Source of the DNA: Rhodospirillaceae bacterium
Lineage (GTDB): Bacteria > Pseudomonadota > Alphaproteobacteria > Rhodospirillales > Rhodospirillaceae
Assembly (NCBI GenBank): GCA_002737725.1
Contig: NSIP01000005.1
Span: forward strand, 62,001-126,000
DNA: 64,000 nt
Reading direction: 5' to 3'
In this document: positions 1,898-13,997 of the stretch, one piece after another
Numbering within the stretch: position 1 is the first letter of the stretch
Layout of the letters: every line of letters starts with the position of its first letter
Position numbers and translations under genes: made by a program
Notes under the pieces: generated by a model
The model's input: only the letters and a program-made list of their open reading frames with translations
What the model was told of the DNA's origin: nothing
Databases searched by the model: none

Positions 1898-1995
1898 GCG
1901 GGCAGCGTCGCCAGTTGGTCATGCGTGTAGAAGCCGCTTTGGCTTCCGTGATGTCACTCGTACGCTGTATATAGCGTTTGGGGATGGAGTGTCGC

Positions 1996-3945
1996 ATGGC
2001 GTCACAAAACGTAGACCGTCGCAACTTCCTGTCGAAGGTTGCTGTCGCTAGCAGCGCAGCGGCTATCCCGACAGTTCACGCTGCAGAGCCTGCGAATAAG
2101 ACCCTCCCAGCCACTGAAGCGCGCCGCCTCGCCCCACCATCCGTGGCGCAACTTGCCGCAGATACAGGCGAAGCACGCCCCCAACTCCCCGCATCCGCAA
2201 CCGATTGCGGATCGGATTTTATGGTCGATGTCATCAAAACCCTCAACATCGATTACATCTTTTCTAATCCTGGATCGAGCTTCTTAGGCTTGCACGAATC
2301 AATCGTAAATTACGGTGGTAACAAGAGCCCCGAATTCATTACGTGCATGCATGAAGAGTCTTCAGCCGCCATGGCCAATGGGTACTACAAAGCCTCAGGG
2401 CGCCCAGCGTCGATTCTCTGCCACGGCACGGTGGGGCTTCAGCACGCATCCATGGCGCTTTATAATGCGTGGTGTGATCGCGTTCCCTTGATTGCCATTC
2501 TTGGCAACACCCTCGACAGCACTAAACGAGCAGGGGCTAATGATTGGCGGCATTCTGCGCAAGACCCGGCGGCCATCGTGCGCGATTTTACGAAATGGGA
2601 CGATCAGCCCATCTCGCTGCAAGCGTTCGCTGAGTCCATGGTTCAGGGCTACAAAATCTCGACAACACCACCGATGGAGCCCATCGTTTTGGTTGCCGAC
2701 AGCCAATTGCAAGAAATGGAGCTCGTGAGTCGCAGCGGGCTTTCGATTCCCAAACTCTCCCCGACTCTGCCGCCGCAAGGTGATGCTGGCGCACTTCGTG
2801 AGGCTGCTCAATTCTTGGTCGCGGCAGAACGGCCGGTGATTTTAGCTGACCGACTTGCGCGAACGGCAGAAGGCATGCGGCTTCTGGTTCAACTTGCCGA
2901 GACGCTGAACGCGCCGGTGGTGGACTTGACTAGTCGCCAAAACATGCCCACCACGCATCACTTGTATCAAAATGCGCAGAACAGAAAGCTCGTTGCGCAA
3001 GCCGATGTGATTCTCGGGTTAGAGGTCACCGACTTCTGGGGGCAAATCAATCAATTCAATCGAATTGATGATAGTAGCAGCCCGCGCATGAAGCCGGGAA
3101 CCAAGTTGATTCGAATTGGCGTGAATGACCTTTACATGAAATCCAACTATCAGGATTTCCAACGCTACGCCGCCGTAGATTTGTCCATCGCTGGCGACGG
3201 TGAGACAACGCTGCCAGCTCTTATTGATGCTGTGAAATCTGCGATGAGCGACAATCGAAAATTATCACTCGCTCCTCGGGCTGAGGTTTATCGCAAAATG
3301 TACGCGGAGAATTATGAAGCCGCACGCCAGGCCGCTGCGTTTGGTTGGGACGCAAGCCCGATCAGCACAGCGCGCCTCTGCATGGAGTTGTGGCAGCAGA
3401 TCAAGACTGAAGACTGGGCGCTTGTCTCGGTGGGCGCATCAGAAGGCTTCATCAGCAATTGGCCCCATCGCCTGTGGCATATTGATCGGCATTATCAATA
3501 CTTAGGCTATGGCGCAGGCGGTGGCGTGGGGTACGGGCTACCGGCCGCCGTCGGAGCCGCGCTTGCCAACAAGGCCTTAGGGCGTATGTCCGTCAACATC
3601 CAATGTGATGGGGACTTTATGTACGCCAATGGCGCATTGTGGACTGCCGCGCATCACCGCATTCCGCTGCTCACCGTCATGCACAACAACCGGGCTTACG
3701 CACAAGAAACCATGCTGCTGCAAGGCATTGCCAATCAGCGGAATCGTGGGGTTACGACAGCAAAAATTGGCACTGCAATCGAAGACCCCAATATCGACTA
3801 TGCAAAGCTTGCGCACGGCATGGGTGTTTGGGCCGAAGGCCCGATCACAGACCCCAAAGACTTAGCCCCTGCCATCAAGCGCGCAATTGGTGTCGTCAAA
3901 CAGGGGCTGCCTGCTCTGATCGATGTTGTCACCCAGTCGAGATAG
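1996..3945 (+). CDS. Tat-exported thiamine-diphosphate-dependent enzyme (acetolactate synthase-like)
   Basis: A 649-residue protein of the ThDP-dependent acetolactate synthase/benzoylformate decarboxylase superfamily. After a twin-arginine leader (DRRNFLSKVAVASSAAA, residues 7-23, with a plausible cut after VHA) come the N-terminal pyrimidine-binding domain with the activating glutamate (HEES, Glu120), a central domain, and a C-terminal diphosphate-binding domain. The last contains CDGDFMYANG (Asp538) followed by two asparagines at 564-565, matching the GDG...NN metal/cofactor motif except for Cys in the first place. I chose the ATG at 1996 because GGAG lies six bases upstream; the ATG at 1984 and TTG at 1978 lack this. 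The reaction cannot be named from sequence. Export is unusual for the superfamily. The next gene, 8 bases on, encodes a cytochrome c, which suggests an oxidative reaction passing electrons to a haem. Confidence 0.85.
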   Translation: MASQNVDRRNFLSKVAVASSAAAIPTVHAAEPANKTLPATEARRLAPPSVAQLAADTGEARPQLPASATDCGSDFMVDVIKTLNIDYIFSNPGSSFLGLHESIVNYGGNKSPEFITCMHEESSAAMANGYYKASGRPASILCHGTVGLQHASMALYNAWCDRVPLIAILGNTLDSTKRAGANDWRHSAQDPAAIVRDFTKWDDQPISLQAFAESMVQGYKISTTPPMEPIVLVADSQLQEMELVSRSGLSIPKLSPTLPPQGDAGALREAAQFLVAAERPVILADRLARTAEGMRLLVQLAETLNAPVVDLTSRQNMPTTHHLYQNAQNRKLVAQADVILGLEVTDFWGQINQFNRIDDSSSPRMKPGTKLIRIGVNDLYMKSNYQDFQRYAAVDLSIAGDGETTLPALIDAVKSAMSDNRKLSLAPRAEVYRKMYAENYEAARQAAAFGWDASPISTARLCMELWQQIKTEDWALVSVGASEGFISNWPHRLWHIDRHYQYLGYGAGGGVGYGLPAAVGAALANKALGRMSVNIQCDGDFMYANGALWTAAHHRIPLLTVMHNNRAYAQETMLLQGIANQRNRGVTTAKIGTAIEDPNIDYAKLAHGMGVWAEGPITDPKDLAPAIKRAIGVVKQGLPALIDVVTQSR

Positions 3946-3953
3946 GTAACCCC

Positions 3954-4334
3954 ATGCCCCAACGTTATGCCCTCGCTGCCGCCGCGCTGACCCTGTGGGC
4001 TTGTAGCACAATTGCGGCTGCCGATGAGACCAAGCCATCCGTGGCCCGTGGTCGTGACATCTTCATGAAAGTGGGCTGCTATCACTGCCATGGCACCCAT
4101 GGCCAGGGCAGCGGTGCAGGTTTAAAGTTAGCCCCAGACCCCTTGCCGACAGAAGCCATTGCCCAGTTCATTCGGGCAACAACGAGCACAATGCCCGCCT
4201 ACAGCGAGCACATCCTATCGGATTCTCAAATCGCTGATATTGCCGCTTACTTAGGCTCAATACCCGCAGCGCGATCGCCAGACGCGATCCCCGCACTAAA
4301 GAGTTCAAGCCAACACGTTAAGCCCCAGCGCTAG
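3954..4334 (+). CDS. Periplasmic monohaem cytochrome c
   Basis: A 126-residue secreted class I cytochrome c. It has a Sec signal peptide (hydrophobic run YALAAAALTLWACSTIAAA, cut near ADE), one haem-attachment site CYHCH at residues 42-46 and a likely axial methionine at residue 80 (TSTMPAYS), followed by the usual closing helix (SDSQIADIAAYLGSIP). It starts 8 bases after the ThDP enzyme stop and is surely co-transcribed with it. The natural reading is electron acceptor or partner of that enzyme, but this is inference. No other redox partner lies next to it. Confidence 0.9.
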   Translation: MPQRYALAAAALTLWACSTIAAADETKPSVARGRDIFMKVGCYHCHGTHGQGSGAGLKLAPDPLPTEAIAQFIRATTSTMPAYSEHILSDSQIADIAAYLGSIPAARSPDAIPALKSSSQHVKPQR

Positions 4335-6526: not shown

Positions 6527-8515
6527 CTAATTATTTCGGGCCAAACTCAAGACCATCCGTGCGGCTTGGCGGCTCGGCGACGACCCCTCAGGCGAGAGCT
6601 TTGCCAACGCGACTTTGAAGTCATCTTGCATTGATCTGCGTGCGGCCTCGTCGTGCATCAGCGTGAGCACGTCTCGTGCCAGAACTTCACCGCGGACATC
6701 ATCTTGCAAGCGCTCGGGGACAGTTTCACGATTCATCAGAACATTGACCAGGTTCACGTACTTGGTCCTGATCAAGCGGCGTAAAACAAAAGCGGACACA
6801 GGATTGGCGCGATAAGCAATGATATGCGGAACCCCCGCCATTGCCAGTTCGAGCGAAACTGTCCCTGACGCAGCCAATGCTGCACGCCCAGCAGCGAAAG
6901 CATCGAACCGCTCGGATGTTGTGGTCACAACGATGGGCTTTCTGGGCCAGCTCACCACGGCGTCTTGAACCCGCGTGACAACATTGGGCACAGTTGGAAT
7001 AACAATACGAAGATGAGGCACCTGAGCGCACAGGGCCCGAGCAGCAACTTCAAACGCGCTCATCAACTGTTTAATTTCTGAGTTTCGGCTCCCCGGCAAT
7101 ACAATCAGCACGGCCTCATGATCGGCGATGTGATGGCGGCGGCGAAAGGCAGATGCGTCACCCTTGTCTGCCCCGCACTCAAGTACCGGATGACCAACCC
7201 AAGATGTGCTGAGGCCATATTTTGTGAAATAGGCTGGCTCGAATGGAAACAACGTCATCAAATGCTGAACCCAGCGCGCCAGTTGCTTGGCACGGCCCGG
7301 TCGCCACGCCCAGACTTGCGGGGCCACATAACGCACACGCGGAATCTGGCTGTGGCTTTTCGACAGCCGCTCATGCACACGGCCCGTAAAGCCCCAAGAA
7401 TCGATGGTCACAAGGATATCGGGGGATTGCGTCTTGATGTCAGCAACCGTTTCACGCACGCGGCGCAGCACCATAGCAGCATTGGGAATCACTTCAAAAA
7501 TACCAAGCAAAGCCAAGTCAGCGGGGTCGAACAAAGATTGCAGACCAGCAGCTTTCATTTCAGGTCCACCAATACCAATGATGCGGGCACGACCTTGGCT
7601 CTCATTATTCAGGGCGCGCATCAGCAAAGCCCCGAGCTGATCTCCTGAAGGCTCGCAGGCCACCACATACACCAGTGGTGAGTCTGTTGCTGTCGTTGCT
7701 TGGCTTGATACGCCCACAAGGAAAAGGCCCGCAGCATCACCGGCTGCAATCACTTCTGCGCGATCAACAATCAAGCTCTGCCCTGCTTCGACCGCGATTC
7801 CGCGCAAGCCTGCCGCAGCAGCATTGCGAACCGTTGCCACGCCAATCGTCGGCAGATCGACGCGACGTTCCTGCTGTGGCTTTTTCATTTTGACCAGGGT
7901 TCCGCCAACGCCGCCTTTCGCTCTGGCGATCAATGCGTCTGTTCCATCGGCGCACTCAGCATCAACGATCTGCCCGCCATTGATAACGACGGCTTGGCCA
8001 ATGTCACGCCGCCCAAGGTCACGCGCAGATACGATTCCGATGGCAATATCAGATTCGTCGTTCGCGGTCGGTTGGTGTCGCCCGAGCACACCCAATGGAG
8101 CTAAAACATCGGTGAGCACATCGTGTACACCGATCACGCGCAATCCTGCGTGCTCGATCTCGGCAATGACGGCTGACAACAAACCATTATCGCCGATAAC
8201 ACGTCCGGCCAAGCGCAAGAAAAACCGAAAGGTGCGTAAGTCGGGCCACAGGTTCAGCCATGTGGGGCGTCGCACGACCCCGACCATGACAATCTCGCGA
8301 ACACCCGCAGACGACATGAGCTCAAAGCCAGTGCCAGCTTGTCCGAAGCGTATCCAAGCATCTGGCTCTTGCCCCAACTCAGCACTTGTCGCGAAGCCCT
8401 TGAGTGCAAGTACGAAGTACGCTCGCCCGGACGCGCGACACGCTGCGATCAGCTGAGCGGGCAGCGCGCCACCACCTGCGATGATACCAATTTTTTCGTT
8501 TTGGGTGTGCGCCAT
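6527..8515 (-). CDS. Fused UDP-2,3-diacylglucosamine pyrophosphatase (LpxI) and lipid-A-disaccharide synthase (LpxB)
   Basis: A single uninterrupted 662-residue frame holds two lipid A enzymes. Residues 1 to about 269 are LpxI (former DUF1009): opening IGIIAGGGALP, C-terminal KPQQERRVDLPTIG with the conserved Asp220, ending AAGLFLVGV. Residues about 281-662 are LpxB, a GT-B glycosyltransferase: ACEPSGDQLG (usually AGEPSGD), PQVWAWRPGR, LPGSRNSEIKQL and ASGTVSLELAMAGVPHIIAY. The linker is only about 11 residues (SSQATTATDSP). LpxI cleaves UDP-diacylglucosamine to lipid X plus UMP; LpxB joins lipid X to a second UDP-diacylglucosamine. The fusion thus joins consecutive steps. It is the last gene of the cluster, 17 bases after lpxA. 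Confidence 0.93.
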   Translation of the reverse strand: MAHTQNEKIGIIAGGGALPAQLIAACRASGRAYFVLALKGFATSAELGQEPDAWIRFGQAGTGFELMSSAGVREIVMVGVVRRPTWLNLWPDLRTFRFFLRLAGRVIGDNGLLSAVIAEIEHAGLRVIGVHDVLTDVLAPLGVLGRHQPTANDESDIAIGIVSARDLGRRDIGQAVVINGGQIVDAECADGTDALIARAKGGVGGTLVKMKKPQQERRVDLPTIGVATVRNAAAAGLRGIAVEAGQSLIVDRAEVIAAGDAAGLFLVGVSSQATTATDSPLVYVVACEPSGDQLGALLMRALNNESQGRARIIGIGGPEMKAAGLQSLFDPADLALLGIFEVIPNAAMVLRRVRETVADIKTQSPDILVTIDSWGFTGRVHERLSKSHSQIPRVRYVAPQVWAWRPGRAKQLARWVQHLMTLFPFEPAYFTKYGLSTSWVGHPVLECGADKGDASAFRRRHHIADHEAVLIVLPGSRNSEIKQLMSAFEVAARALCAQVPHLRIVIPTVPNVVTRVQDAVVSWPRKPIVVTTTSERFDAFAAGRAALAASGTVSLELAMAGVPHIIAYRANPVSAFVLRRLIRTKYVNLVNVLMNRETVPERLQDDVRGEVLARDVLTLMHDEAARRSMQDDFKVALAKLSPEGSSPSRQAARMVLSLARNN

Positions 8516-8532: not shown

Positions 8533-9342
8533 TTACGAGCCGTTACCGTTGGTCGCCGCTGAGGGCGAGCACAAGGGGCGCGCGGAATCGGCGCGAATGA
8601 AGTTCACAATATCCATAACACCAGCTTGATCGGCATAGATGTCGGCGACTTCATTCAGGCGATCAGCCATAGTGCCGTCTTGGCTGAACAACAAGCCAAA
8701 GGCCGCTCGTAATTTCTGGATGTCGGAGCGCGAGAACCCACGGCGCTTCAGCCCAATCAGATTCAACCCCGTGAGATGAGCCCGGTTTCCCTGGGCCGCC
8801 CCATAGGGGATAATGTCGCGGTCGACGCCAGTTTTGCCGCCAATCATGGCGTGCTTGCCGATGCGCACAAACTGCTGCACGCCACACTGGCCGCCAACAA
8901 TGGCGAACTCGCCGATCTGAACATGGCCGCCAAGCGCCACACCATTTGTGAGGATCACATTGTTCTCAATGGCACAATCATGGGCAACATGGCTGCCCAC
9001 CATGAAAAAGCAATTATCGCCGACACGCGTGACCATACCGCCCAACTCGGTCCCACGATGCATCGTCACGTGCTCGCGAATCACATTATTCTTTCCGATC
9101 TCAAGCCGTGAGGGCTCGCCTTTATAACGCAGATGTTGCGGCGGAGAGCCCAGCGCGCAGTACGGGTGAACAATCGTTCCTTCGCCTATCGATGTGTTCG
9201 GATCAACCGCCACATGCGAGAGAAGTTTAACGCCTTTGCCTAAGCGCACATGGGCGCCGATGATACAATATGGTCCAATCTCGGCACTGGCATCTATGTC
9301 TGCTGTCGGATCGATACCGGATGTCTGGTGAAAATTTACCAT
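8533..9342 (-). CDS. lpxA: Acyl-ACP--UDP-N-acetylglucosamine O-acyltransferase
   Basis: LpxA, 269 residues, carries out the first committed step of lipid A synthesis, moving an R-3-hydroxyacyl chain from ACP to the 3-OH of UDP-GlcNAc. The N-terminal two thirds show the hexapeptide repeats of a left-handed beta helix (for example IDASAEIGPYCIIGAHVRLG), with the family stretch HVAHDCAIENNVILTNG containing the catalytic His region. The C-terminal helical domain follows, with a short low-complexity tail (SAATNGNGS). It starts 7 bases after fabZ, so the two are translated from one message. Confidence 0.95.
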   Translation of the reverse strand: MVNFHQTSGIDPTADIDASAEIGPYCIIGAHVRLGKGVKLLSHVAVDPNTSIGEGTIVHPYCALGSPPQHLRYKGEPSRLEIGKNNVIREHVTMHRGTELGGMVTRVGDNCFFMVGSHVAHDCAIENNVILTNGVALGGHVQIGEFAIVGGQCGVQQFVRIGKHAMIGGKTGVDRDIIPYGAAQGNRAHLTGLNLIGLKRRGFSRSDIQKLRAAFGLLFSQDGTMADRLNEVADIYADQAGVMDIVNFIRADSARPLCSPSAATNGNGS

Positions 9343-9349
9343 CGGATCA

Positions 9350-9814
9350 TTAGAACATTATCATTGCAGTATACAAAGCCTCAGCGACAACAACGCCATC
9401 GACTTTAGCTTTGCCCGAAAACTTCCAGACATTCCCGCGCTGGCGCTCTTTTTTGCAGTAGATCATCAGCTGATCACCAGGCTCGACGGGCTTGCGGAAG
9501 CGTGCATTCTCAATAGACATAAAATAGACCAGCTTTCCTTCGGTCTCAGCACCCAGATGTGACACAACGATCACTGCAGCCGTTTGGGCCATCGCCTCGA
9601 CAATTAAAACGCCCGGCATCACCGGGCGATCAGGGAAGTGGCCCTGAAAATGGGGCTCGTTCATGCTGACATTTTTCAGGCCCACGGCACTTTCGCCCGG
9701 CACGACATCCAGAACCCGATCAACCAGTAGAAACGGATACCGGTGCGGGATCATCTTTAAGATGCGATGAATATCGATTTTGGCAATGGCTGAGCTGGCG
9801 GGTTGACCATCCAT
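9350..9814 (-). CDS. fabZ: 3-hydroxyacyl-ACP dehydratase FabZ
   Basis: A 154-residue hot-dog-fold dehydratase of type II fatty acid synthesis. The family core is clear: IPHRYPFLLVDRV (catalytic His in PHR), the stretch FQGHFPDRPVMPGVLIVEAM with its catalytic acid in the central helix, and a closing beta strand. FabZ competes with LpxA and LpxD for 3-hydroxyacyl-ACP, and its placement between lpxD and lpxA is the usual proteobacterial order, which helps balance phospholipid and lipid A supply. Confidence 0.96.
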   Translation of the reverse strand: MDGQPASSAIAKIDIHRILKMIPHRYPFLLVDRVLDVVPGESAVGLKNVSMNEPHFQGHFPDRPVMPGVLIVEAMAQTAAVIVVSHLGAETEGKLVYFMSIENARFRKPVEPGDQLMIYCKKERQRGNVWKFSGKAKVDGVVVAEALYTAMIMF

Positions 9815-9916: not shown

Positions 9917-10927
9917 TCAACCGCGCTTTGTCAAGCGCGCCAGGGTTGCGAGTTCGCGCCAAAACTGCCGAATTGGCTTGGCCGGATAGCCCATCACGGT
10001 CTGCTTTGCGGCCACGTCAGAAGATACGCCCGATTGCCCGGCAATTTGAGCCCCAGACCCGATGTTGATGTGATCAATAATGCCCACCTGGGGCCCGATG
10101 ACGACCCCATCCCCAATCACGCAGCTGCCAGCAATGCCAGCCTGAGCCACCACCAGACACCCATGTCCCATGACGACGTTATGTGCGATTTGAACTAAAT
10201 TATCGAACTTACACCCCCGCCCGATAATGGTGTCGCTGAGCATTCCACGATCAATCGTAGAATTGGCACCAATCTCAACATCATCATGAATCACAACGCG
10301 GCCAAGCTGGCGAGCTTTCACAGGGCCTTTTGGTCCAGCCGTGTACCCAAAGCCATCTTGGCCAATCTGCACACCAGGATGCACGATGACGCGATGGCCA
10401 ACCAAGCTAAACGAAATTGTAACGTTTGCACCGATATCACAATCATCGCCGATTACGACCCCCGCCCCGATTGCCACATGAGGCCCAAGCCTTGTCCGCG
10501 CGCCGATTTTAGCCTGAGCCCCGATGACTGCGCCCGGCGCAATGACTGCACTGGTGTCGATCTCAGCAGACGACGCGACAGACCCATCTGAGGGCCAGTG
10601 AGAAAGAACATCAGGATAAAAGACGTCTAGAATTTTGGAAAAAGCCGAGCGGGCGTCCGGGCAAATCAGAGCGACGCACGTTGATGGCACAGAAGCAGAA
10701 ATCTCTGCGTCAATCAGGCACGCGCCTGCCTTTGTCGCCGCGAGTTCAGGAATGTATTTGTGGTCTGAGACGAAAATCAAATCTGCCGATGTCGCGTTTT
10801 TCAGCGTTGCGACATCGGCGATTTGCGTGTTGGGGTTAGAAGACCCCGATAACTTCGCCCCCGCAATCTCGGCTAGACGCGCGAGAGACTGCGGCCCGGC
10901 TCGACGAAAGAACCGGGGATCGGGCAT
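9917..10927 (-). CDS. lpxD: UDP-3-O-acylglucosamine N-acyltransferase
   Basis: LpxD, 336 residues, adds the second hydroxyacyl chain (N-linked) to UDP-3-O-acylglucosamine. It has an N-terminal uridine-binding domain (about residues 1-100), a long hexapeptide-repeat beta helix (for example [20 protein letters not shown]) and the catalytic-His region in [19 protein letters not shown], then a short C-terminal helix. It lies 11 bases downstream of the skp/ompH gene. Acceptor and acyl length cannot be read from sequence. Confidence 0.95.
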
Positions 10928-10938
10928 GGATCTAAACG

Positions 10939-11595
10939 TTATGGCTTCTTTGCAACGGGTGCGGCAGCCGGACGCGGAGCCCCACCAGCAGCAGGTGCAA
11001 CGCCGGCTGGGTTACCTTGCTCGTCAACCCGCGCGAGTGTTGCTGGATCTTGGAACTTCACATTGGTCAACTTCGCATTGAGCTTGGTCAAAACCGGAGC
11101 AGTGATGTCCATGCCTGGGTCGACAACCAGCAGAATTTGGCTGCGTGCGAATACCGTATTGATGCCGCGCTCTTTAGCGACTTCGCCAGCGACCGCATAG
11201 ATCGCTTGACCAATTTCCTGCATCGACTGCTGGAACGAATAGTCCAAGCGCTCCTGCTTGTCGCGAACGCGTGTTTGGAAATCCGCAAGTTTCTTCTGGA
11301 AATCCGTAGCACGCGTTTGGAAAACGTCAGGTGACATCACACCACGTTGTTTCGCCAGTTCCTCGTCCTCAGTGCGCAGTTTCTTTTCATCTTCTTGCAC
11401 TTGTGTCTGATACAGCGTCGCCACCTTATCGCGTTCCAACCGCACGCCCTTAGACGCAAGCGAGTCGCGTAAAATTGCGTCGGTGTCGACGATGCCGATC
11501 GCCGGGGCTGGGAGGCGCTCGGTCTGCGCGATGGCAGCATACGAAATAAATACGGCAGAGACTGCCGCTAGAGTCGTCAAAAGTATCTTTTTCAT
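10939..11595 (-). CDS. skp: OmpH/Skp-family periplasmic chaperone
   Basis: A 218-residue exported protein. It has a Sec signal peptide ([20 protein letters not shown], cut near IAQ), then the OmpH family opening [13 protein letters not shown] and a long charged, coiled-coil-like segment (roughly residues 50-130, rich in Lys, Glu and Gln), as in the tentacles of Skp. It ends in an Ala/Pro-rich tail not found in E. coli Skp. The frame is open to 11619, but the ATG at 11595 has AAGGAAGGG just upstream and gives a proper signal peptide. It would hold unfolded outer-membrane proteins on their way to BamA, encoded immediately upstream. Confidence 0.88.
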
Positions 11596-11651
11596 ATTCC
11601 CTTCCTTGGTCTCGATCACGAGACTTGAGCTGTGTTGAAAAACAAAAGAAC

Positions 11652-13997
11652 TTAGAACCTTTGTCCGAAGTTCACTCGGAACTTCTGGCGATCATCAAAC
11701 GGCTGGGCGTTAAACACGAAAGGTGACCAATCGATCTGGATAGGTCCAACCGGCGACTCCCACTGCACACCAATTCCTGCCGATCCACGGAATTGAGACG
11801 AACGCTGAATGTTCACCAATTCAGCAGCGGTCAGTCTTCCAATCAAATCCTGAGGAGAGCCGATCGCGCCCCAATCGGTAAACAACTTCGGGGTAATTCC
11901 GATTTCCTTAGGTAAGCCCAAGGGAATCTTTAACTCTGCGGTTCCGGTGGCGATCCAGTCTCCACCCAACGCATCTCCCGTGGACGAATCACGAGGGCTA
12001 ACGCCGAAATCGTTGTAACCACGCAGGTTAGTACCACCAAGCTGGTAGCGTTGGTAGACCTTAATATCATCGCCAATGCCAACCAAATAGCCAGAATTAC
12101 CCAAGACACCGAGTACCCAACCATCGAACGGCTGATAGTACCAGCCCGCGCTTAAACCGCCGCGAACATACTTCTCAGACCCGCCCAATCCGGCCAAATC
12201 CGTCGAAAGACTGACGTAATATCCGCGCGAGGGCTCAATCACATTATTCAGGCGGTTCAATGAAATCGACTGGCTGACCTGCGAGGTCACCGTCGAACCT
12301 TCTTGCTCACGAATATAGGGTGAAGAGAACGCACTGATGCCCGTCAGCTTCGTCCAGGTGAGGTTATAACTGAAACGCTGGACCAGGTACTCGTTATAGT
12401 TAAAGCCCAATCGTGCCGTTCCACCGACAGACTTCGAAGTATAACCCGCCTGGTCTTGGTAATCTTGCTCTTGGGCAAACAGATCGCCACCCGCAAGGAT
12501 ACGGCGACCAAGAAAATAAGGTTCAGTAAAGCTGATTTGAATCTGAGTCTGTTGCTGAGCCAGACTGAAATTAAAGCGCAAATCTTGACCACGCCCCAAT
12601 AAATTGCGCTGACTCACACCGACATCAAACAGTGCGCCGCTGGCGCTAGAGAAGCCAATACCGAATTGCAATTCACCGGTCGATTGCTCCTCGACCTCTG
12701 CCGTAATCACGGTTCGGTCGGGTGACACTTGCGACGGTATATTTTCAACCTTTACTTTGTCTTCTTTGAAGAATCCCAAATTCTCTAACCGCTCTTTTGA
12801 GCGGCGGATTTTTGCGGTGTTGAAGGCGTCGCCTTCAGCCAGCAAGATTTCACGACGAATGACTTTATCGAGTGTGACGACATTGCCCTTCACCTCAACA
12901 CGCTCAACGAACACACGTGGACCTTCTTCGACCTCGTACGTCAGATCAATCGTGCGCGTTTTTTCGTCGCGATTCAGGCGCGGGTTGACGTCGATGAACG
13001 CGTACCCGGCATTCCCCACCGCATCGTTGATTTTGTTGATGGTGTCGTCAATTTTCTTTGCGTTATACCACTCACCCGGCAGCGTGAGGATGTCGGGCTC
13101 GAGACGCGCTTTGTCGAAGCCCTTTAGCTTCACGTCCGCATCGACCTTGCCGAGTTTGTAGCGTTGACCTTCCTTGACGGTAAAGGTCATGAAAAAGCTT
13201 TCGCGGTTCGGGGCAAGTTCAGCCACGCCCGAAATCACCTCGAAGTCAGCATAACCGTTTTGCAAATAATGGCGTCGAAGAAGCTCACGATCGAAGTTCA
13301 TGCGCTCGGGGTCGTAGGTGTCGTTCGAGGTGAGAAATTTCCACCACTTCTCCTCAACCGTCAGCACAACGTCGCGCAAATCGCCGTCGCTAAATTCTTT
13401 GTTGCCGATAAAGTCAATTTTACGAACATATGTCGGCTTTCCCTCGGTGACTTCGTAGACGAGGTCGACGCGGTTCTGAGGCAACTCGATAACTTTCGGA
13501 TCCACCCGCACGCCGAACCGACCTTTGCGCCGGTAAAGTTCGAGGATTTTCTCGACGTCCTGCTGGACCTTGGTTCGCGTGTAAACTACGCGCGGGCGCA
13601 ATTGAATTTCGGGCGTAATCTTGTCGTCTTCGATCCGTTTATTACCTTCGACCGAAATACGATTGATGATCGGGTTTTCGACGACCCTGACCACCAACAA
13701 GTCACCCTGGCGACCTACGCTCACGTCGGCGAACAATCCTGTCGAGAATAGGTTTTTGATCGAGCGGTCGATCCGCGCCGGATCAAAAGCGTCACCTTCG
13801 GCCACTGCGAGGTAGCTTCGGATGGTTGCGCCTTCAATACGCTGGTTGCCTTGCACCGCAAGGCCGCTGATCACGTCACTGCTTTGGGCGAATGCGGGCG
13901 ATCCGAACAACAAAAACAGAAGAGCCCCCAAGACGGGCACAACGTTGGCGCTACGTCCCTGATCTGTAAGGGGCTTGTTTGAAGACAGGACTAACAC
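11652..13997 (-). CDS. bamA: Outer-membrane protein assembly factor BamA
   Basis: A 781-residue Omp85-family protein, the core of the BAM complex that inserts beta barrels into the outer membrane. It has a signal peptide (VVPVLGALLFLLFGSPAFAQ), about five POTRA domains (roughly 38-420, e.g. ISVEGNKRIED) and a C-terminal 16-strand barrel with NLRGYNDFGVSPR, close to the conserved VRGY/F loop, ending in the aromatic signature VNFGQRF. The start at 13997 is GTG with a weak ribosome-binding sequence; no better one is visible upstream. It lies 27 bases after rseP. Confidence 0.95.
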   Translation of the reverse strand: MLVLSSNKPLTDQGRSANVVPVLGALLFLLFGSPAFAQSSDVISGLAVQGNQRIEGATIRSYLAVAEGDAFDPARIDRSIKNLFSTGLFADVSVGRQGDLLVVRVVENPIINRISVEGNKRIEDDKITPEIQLRPRVVYTRTKVQQDVEKILELYRRKGRFGVRVDPKVIELPQNRVDLVYEVTEGKPTYVRKIDFIGNKEFSDGDLRDVVLTVEEKWWKFLTSNDTYDPERMNFDRELLRRHYLQNGYADFEVISGVAELAPNRESFFMTFTVKEGQRYKLGKVDADVKLKGFDKARLEPDILTLPGEWYNAKKIDDTINKINDAVGNAGYAFIDVNPRLNRDEKTRTIDLTYEVEEGPRVFVERVEVKGNVVTLDKVIRREILLAEGDAFNTAKIRRSKERLENLGFFKEDKVKVENIPSQVSPDRTVITAEVEEQSTGELQFGIGFSSASGALFDVGVSQRNLLGRGQDLRFNFSLAQQQTQIQISFTEPYFLGRRILAGGDLFAQEQDYQDQAGYTSKSVGGTARLGFNYNEYLVQRFSYNLTWTKLTGISAFSSPYIREQEGSTVTSQVSQSISLNRLNNVIEPSRGYYVSLSTDLAGLGGSEKYVRGGLSAGWYYQPFDGWVLGVLGNSGYLVGIGDDIKVYQRYQLGGTNLRGYNDFGVSPRDSSTGDALGGDWIATGTAELKIPLGLPKEIGITPKLFTDWGAIGSPQDLIGRLTAAELVNIQRSSQFRGSAGIGVQWESPVGPIQIDWSPFVFNAQPFDDRQKFRVNFGQRF

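Follow-up and report, generated by a model that had tools for sequence, protein, structure and literature searches.

The lpxI and lpxB genes of the window (the whole 64-kb stretch of DNA analysed here) were found to form one continuous gene, whose product is predicted, with a probability of about 0.8, to be a bifunctional UDP-diacylglucosamine hydrolase and lipid A disaccharide synthase; in this reading the two steps may also be coupled by a hand-off of lipid X. The frame lies on the minus strand, a strand that the initial annotation had not given for positions 6527-8515. It opens with an ATG ending at 8515, closes with the TAG at 6529-6527 and is uninterrupted over its 662 codons. The claim made there of a continuous frame with both enzymes at full length was borne out, since every Pfam domain of the fusion protein scored above its cut-off, with LpxB (residues 282-646) following the two LpxI domains (Table 1). 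In particular, the LpxI half covered profile positions 1-128 of 129 (PF17930) and 3-131 of 131 (PF06230), while the LpxB half covered 1-365 of 374 (PF02684, 296 bits) and reached 257 bits against a cut-off of 190.25 for TIGR00215. Sequence matches in the PDB extended over residues 7-272 for LpxI and 282-659 for LpxB, and the 11-residue linker described before was recovered, with G268 as the last anchor of LpxI ahead of it and P280 as the first anchor of LpxB behind it. The NCBIfam equivalog of LpxI, NF047836, gave 210.6 bits for the window against a cut-off of 400; all six separate LpxI controls also fell below it (232.5-267.5 bits), so this cut-off does not separate these lineages. As for a separate start of LpxB, two GTG codons were present at the junction of the window, neither with a Shine-Dalgarno-like site, and such a start was seen at the fusion junction of only 3 out of 48 fused genes.

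Table 1. Positions of the fused gene, its parts and the neighbouring genes in the window
Feature	Positions	Strand	Remarks
lpxI-lpxB fusion gene	6527..8515	-	662 codons + TAG
LpxI half, residues 1-268	7712..8515	-	LpxI_N 8-136, LpxI_C 142-267; catalytic Q174, T192, D193, K209, D220
Linker, 11 residues (269-279)	7679..7711	-	Low model confidence; no start codon with adjoining Shine-Dalgarno-like site
LpxB half, residues 280-662	6530..7678	-	Catalytic/substrate D372, W402, S476, R477, T552, E556
lpxA	8533..9342	-	Hexapeptide repeats and Acetyltransf_11; 17 bases upstream of the fusion
fabZ	9350..9814	-	FabA-like domain
lpxD	9917..10927	-	
skp/ompH-like	10939..11619	-	
bamA	11652..13997	-	POTRA and Omp85

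The source genome (2.92 Mb in 37 contigs) contained one match to LpxB and one to LpxI. No LpxH above the cut-off was detected in it, the only match being a weak one (45.3 bits vs. 190.35), and the LpxI-bearing control Caulobacter likewise gave an LpxH match below the cut-off. With a single LpxI, a single LpxB and no LpxH above the cut-off, the fused chain must therefore perform both steps, unless an unrelated enzyme substitutes for one of them. A structural review (PMC6286764) lists active-site residues of both enzymes, which were mapped onto the fusion by alignments. Residues Q169, T187, D188, K214 and D225 of LpxI (Caulobacter numbering) corresponded to Q174, T192, D193, K209 and D220 of the window protein, and D98, W126, S200, R201, T277 and E281 of LpxB (E. 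coli numbering) to D372, W402, S476, R477, T552 and E556. All of these were kept in 48 out of 48 fused proteins except the LpxI aspartate D188, kept in 40 of the 48 and in 93 of 107 separate LpxI proteins. The intact motifs noted initially were thus confirmed for the main catalytic residues of both halves that the literature names. LpxI N74, described as a contact of the glucosamine (PMC6286764), is V80 in the window; asparagine appeared there in 2 of the 107 separate rows and in none of the 48 fused ones. Moreover, in comparisons with three full-length members of the genus, both halves were under purifying selection (dN 0.19-0.34, with dS of at least 2.0 or saturated), while the linker region was free of constraint (dN 0.77-1.13 over 12 codons).

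An AlphaFold2 monomer model of the window chain, built with 47 fused sequences, had a mean pLDDT of 89.2, a pLDDT of 63 for residues 271-280 and a pTM of 0.64. In this model each half is well defined, the mutual placing of the halves is not fixed, and the linker is a low-confidence tether. After re-alignment of the Foldseek matches, the LpxI half superimposed on 4j6e with a Z of 30.4 (rmsd 2.0, 262 residues), and the LpxB half on 5w8n with a Z of 25.7 (rmsd 2.9, 292 residues, model residues 277-583). The match to the E. coli LpxB fold ended near the start of the dimer-swapped C-terminal part, and E. coli LpxB gives its last 87 residues to the dimer partner (PMC6286764; PMC5785501). Epimerase and other GT-B matches of the fold search were set aside as sharing the GT-B fold only. 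As a separate observation, the Tetrahymena complex I subunit 7tgh_T1 outscored 5w8n on the LpxB half (Z 28.9, rmsd 5.4, 377 residues); this subunit of the mitochondrial complex I supercomplex (also 8gym_T1 and 8b6f_A0), named a lipid-A-disaccharide synthase, matched the LpxB half by fold along its length and by sequence weakly.

According to the mechanism proposed here, the N-terminal LpxI half would hydrolyse UDP-2,3-diacylglucosamine to lipid X and UMP, and the C-terminal LpxB half would combine lipid X with a second UDP-2,3-diacylglucosamine into the lipid A disaccharide. The LpxI step is known to yield lipid X, which LpxB joins to a second UDP-2,3-diacylglucosamine (PMC6286764), in agreement with the initial annotation, where the second half takes up the lipid X made by the first and UDP-diacylglucosamine serves both halves. 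A single chain contains one LpxI per LpxB, and therefore the fixed 1:1 ratio proposed earlier follows from the continuous two-enzyme chain. The tether would match the supply of lipid X to its use, and lipid X may pass a short distance at the membrane by means of the flexible link, without a closed tunnel. A precise channel or tunnel is disfavoured because the natural linkers of the 48 fused proteins span 4 to 48 residues and are unrelated in sequence. Furthermore, tethering might prevent the build-up of detergent-like lipid X, whose overproduction was reported to be toxic in Chlamydia (PMC4807358). Separate genes, often with a 4-base overlap of stop and start, would be a looser form of the same coupling. 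In the structure of LpxI with lipid X, the acyl chains are held and the sugar phosphate is out in the solvent (PMC5016852), and LpxI retains its ligand through purification (PMC5785501); an exposed sugar phosphate and a retained ligand suit a hand-off of lipid X. What counts against the coupling is the harm observed upon LpxH depletion in Acinetobacter, where the LpxH substrate and other intermediates accumulated and membranes were damaged, an effect that its authors considered may not be universal (PMC4985137).

Regarding known systems, Caulobacter crescentus LpxI (4GGM/4J6E), whose gene lies between lpxA and lpxB, shares both domains, the catalytic residues, the operon place and the fold, but it is a stand-alone protein, while the LpxI of the window is continuous with LpxB. 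E. coli LpxB (5W8N/5W8S/5W8X) shares the GT-B fold and the catalytic residues; however, it is a stand-alone, C-terminally swapped dimer, whereas the LpxB of the window carries a complete N-terminal LpxI and was modelled as a monomer. The lpxC/fabZ fusions of Bacteroidetes, Chlorobi and Verrucomicrobia (PMC3087551) also join neighbours of a lipid A cluster into one chain, although the partner of the lipid A enzyme there belongs to fatty-acid synthesis, whereas LpxI-LpxB unites two consecutive lipid A steps. Finally, the chlamydial-type long LpxB (NF002173, 610 positions) has an N-terminal extension as well, but its N-terminal part is not LpxI, and the LpxB half of the window matched profile positions 224-580 with 134 bits, far below the cut-off of 1033.

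Of the statement that no such case had been described, one part held and the other did not: no LpxI-LpxB fusion was found in the open-access literature searched, but the fusion is no isolated case, as at least 51 of the 292 order genomes with a match carry it and the tree indicates several origins. The founding LpxI papers and subscription papers lay outside the scope of this search, and a prior mention there is possible. No description of the fusion appeared in the available parts of PMC6286764, PMC3087551, PMC4085339, PMC10741038 and PMC5007114, and no mention of it in those of PMC12444477, PMC4807358, PMC5785501 and PMC5016852; in the parts available, the word 'fused' in PMC3087551 referred to lpxC/fabZ, and PMC4085339 offered a gene-order list. 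The window thus presents two known enzymes in a recurrent single-chain form, undescribed as far as the open-access literature was searched.

A profile survey for fused chains mapped on a tree, a check that the initial annotation had suggested, returned a fusion that was recurrent in the order, rare in the class and the phylum, and of several origins. The fused frame was present in all five genomes of the window's genus, four at full length and one (G007) cut by a contig end, the three other full-length members having 64, 64 and 71% protein identity to the window. In the window's family, 68 out of 73 genomes had an LpxI match, and frames of at least 667 residues appeared in three genera, including the window's own. 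For the order (Rhodospirillales, defined by named relatives), 317 genomes were searched with a profile built from 18 fused proteins, and the genes were fused in at least 51 of the 292 genomes with a match, spread over 8 families and 17 of the 108 genera. This lower bound, counted by hand, comprises 48 stop-free matches at full length and another 3 truncated at a contig end; it takes in neither flagged full-length matches such as those of G223, G148, G125, G206 and G245 nor the lowest-ranked matches. These 48 matches and the 48 fused rows used for the tree, residues and linkers are different sets, of the same size by chance. Two genera were fused in every genome with an LpxI match, namely g12 (7 out of 7) and g15 (6 out of 6).

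At the class level, at least 5 out of 338 genomes with a match were fused (G000, G513, G369, G490 and G585), a lower bound because frames were read for the top-listed matches and for 18 regions with a long LpxB. Where full-length matches flagged for an internal stop were read, most proved to be two genes divided by a genuine stop, yet G490 and G585 (family f85) had open frames in spite of this flag. Similarly, the 18 regions whose long LpxB frames lacked a joined LpxI match contained separate genes, except for the fused G513 and G369. In the phylum sample, a full-length stop-free match was found only in the window's own genome among the matches listed (1 out of 362 genomes with a match), and 20 loci were read, of which 17 had both genes and 1, the window's own, was fused. 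Among the best 80 loci of named public genomes, 70 had both genes and 11 were fused, including the cultured Roseospira visakhapatnamensis JA131 and several MAGs of Rhodospirillaceae. Candidate same-frame fusions in Pseudovibrio, Paracoccus, Aureimonas and Ca. Tokpelaia were rejected, as a stop lay between the genes. Overall, these samples fit the earlier view that the two are usually adjacent, separate genes in alphaproteobacteria. LpxI has also been found in diderm Firmicutes (PMC5007114), and the present surveys covered the window's order, class and phylum.

Several observations were made alongside these surveys. All three f85 genomes of the class sample (L201, L202 and L203; 0.8-1.0 Mb) were fused, with linkers of 5-8 residues, and their fusions were the most distant from that of the window on the tree. 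A second kind of LpxB fusion, 765 residues long, was found at L180:2356-4650 (G695, family f201), where LpxB carries a C-terminal family 4-type glycosyltransferase (Pfam LpxB 1-362, Glyco_transf_4 398-552 and Glycos_transf_1 569-735). In addition, contigs titled Tannerella, Bacteroidales, Prevotellaceae and Lactobacillaceae (L110, L135, L143, L151, L167 and L173) carried a near-alphaproteobacterial LpxB, and their titles look wrong.

Within the lipid A cluster of the window, only the lpxI-lpxB fusion looks unusual; the frames upstream of bamA on the same strand are those we take to be rseP, dxr, cdsA, uppS, frr, pyrH, tsf and rpsB. Elsewhere in the window (1978-4334, plus strand), a thiamine pyrophosphate enzyme with an N-terminal twin-arginine-like export signal, judged by eye, is directly followed by a small cytochrome c, an exported enzyme of this kind next to a cytochrome being unusual. 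The junctions of the cluster were compared in 227 loci, a set enriched in fusions as the search ranked them first, so that taxon fractions are taken from the other surveys. In these loci, lpxI and lpxB were fused in 48 cases; as separate genes they shared a strand in 177 and had opposite orientations in 2. Fused pairs were absent from all other junctions, namely lpxA-lpxI (0/220), fabZ-lpxA (0/202), lpxD-fabZ (0/95), skp-lpxD (0/63) and bamA-skp (0/38); lpxD-fabZ was judged in 95 of the 227 loci, given that the LpxD query matched something else in 107 and that LpxD or FabZ was absent in 25. The median gaps, whose lengths depend on guessed start codons, were -11 bases for lpxA-lpxI, 1 for fabZ-lpxA and 3 for separate lpxI-lpxB, of which 157/220, 162/197 and 154/177, respectively, were within 30 bases. 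An exact 4-base overlap, an arrangement of stop and start commonly read as translational coupling, was found in 51 of the 177 separate lpxI-lpxB pairs. Separately, in a small-genome genus of the window's family (g9; L002, L006 and L077), lpxI and lpxB lay tail to tail on opposite strands, breaking the usual operon order.

The main rival explanation, which has close to an even chance of being right, is a neutral fusion at an easy junction, in which a missing lpxI stop does no harm, so that the fused state comes and goes by drift, and both steps are performed by one chain without any coupling. The genes nearly touch or overlap, as the 3-base median gap and the 51 exact overlaps indicate, their termini are loose, the linkers are unrelated, and both enzymes are reported to be dimers (PMC6286764; PMC5785501). 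Moreover, the state is labile inside genera: in g68, G137 and G233 are fused while G192, G218 and G179 have separate genes, and in g201 of family f117 the fused G513 stands against the separate G401, G681 and G604. The benefit of the fusion cannot be large because of this lability. Against neutrality, g12 and g15 keep the fusion throughout, and tightness, that is, opportunity, does not explain the lpxI-lpxB fusions, because lpxA-lpxI and fabZ-lpxA are equally tight and were never fused. Quaternary structure could also explain this contrast, LpxI and LpxB being dimers and LpxA a trimer, and the control junctions may be barred by it rather than by an absent benefit. A selective reading is put forward tentatively: some 8 to 18 alphaproteobacterial lineages would have converged on fusing only these two genes of the operon, as tethering limits the escape of toxic lipid X.

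The number of origins was estimated on a tree of 155 rows (48 fused and 107 separate), built from LpxI and LpxB columns filled in at least 70% of the rows. Left out beforehand were 16 near-identical duplicates, one-gene loci, separate rows whose frames were short, and fused rows below 600 residues, together with 72 of 179 separate rows that were known by contig name only or exceeded two per genus. On this tree the fused state needed 18 changes, at least 15 of them forced by branches with an SH-aLRT of at least 95. The LpxB and LpxI trees needed 18 and 20 changes, respectively, with 9 forced in each, while a mixture-model tree of 65 rows needed 4, all forced. By parsimony, these were 18 gains and no losses, with a range of 12 to 18 gains over near-equal costs; removing the seven fusions seen in a single genome left 11 gains, which became 8 gains plus 5 losses when the gain cost was doubled. 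One of those seven, G186 (filed in f19), grouped beside a row of another family, perhaps because of a binning error. Judged from these sequence trees, lpxI and lpxB thus appear to have merged on several independent occasions within the alphaproteobacteria; such recurrence suggests a benefit in linking the two steps, or at the least that they are easily linked.

One or a few ancestral fusions followed by many later fissions are an unlikely alternative account. With gains three times as costly as losses, the root itself became fused and the tree had 8 gains and 14 losses; near-equal costs weighted towards losses (a gain costing slightly more, or double) gave 12 gains and 6 losses, the single-gene trees force only 9 changes each, and all trees were quick searches, midpoint-rooted and without bootstrap. 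However, at least 8 gains remain even under loss-favouring costs, fission would have to create a stop, a start and a ribosome site anew, fused genes are in the minority in both the class and the phylum sample, and junction length and sequence differ between clades. Lastly, an assembly or sequencing error joining two genes is hardly credible: the source is a draft of 37 contigs and seven fused lineages are known from one genome each, but all five genomes of the genus have the same fused frame, three at 64-71% protein identity, and eleven fused clades have at least two members, one including R. visakhapatnamensis JA131, so that the stop or frameshift at the junction envisaged initially is refuted for the genus, such errors still being possible for the single-genome cases.

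In annotation terms, a single gene accounts for both predicted activities in at least 51 of the 292 order genomes with a match. Antibiotics can be aimed at lipid A synthesis, whose middle steps may work as one coupled unit. The repeated fusion of producer and consumer, beside equally tight junctions that stay unfused, points to the hand-off of lipid X, for which natural fusions with linkers of 4 to 48 residues are ready-made test proteins. If convergent selection is true, these fusions would be natural evidence that the hand-off of lipid X is under selection.
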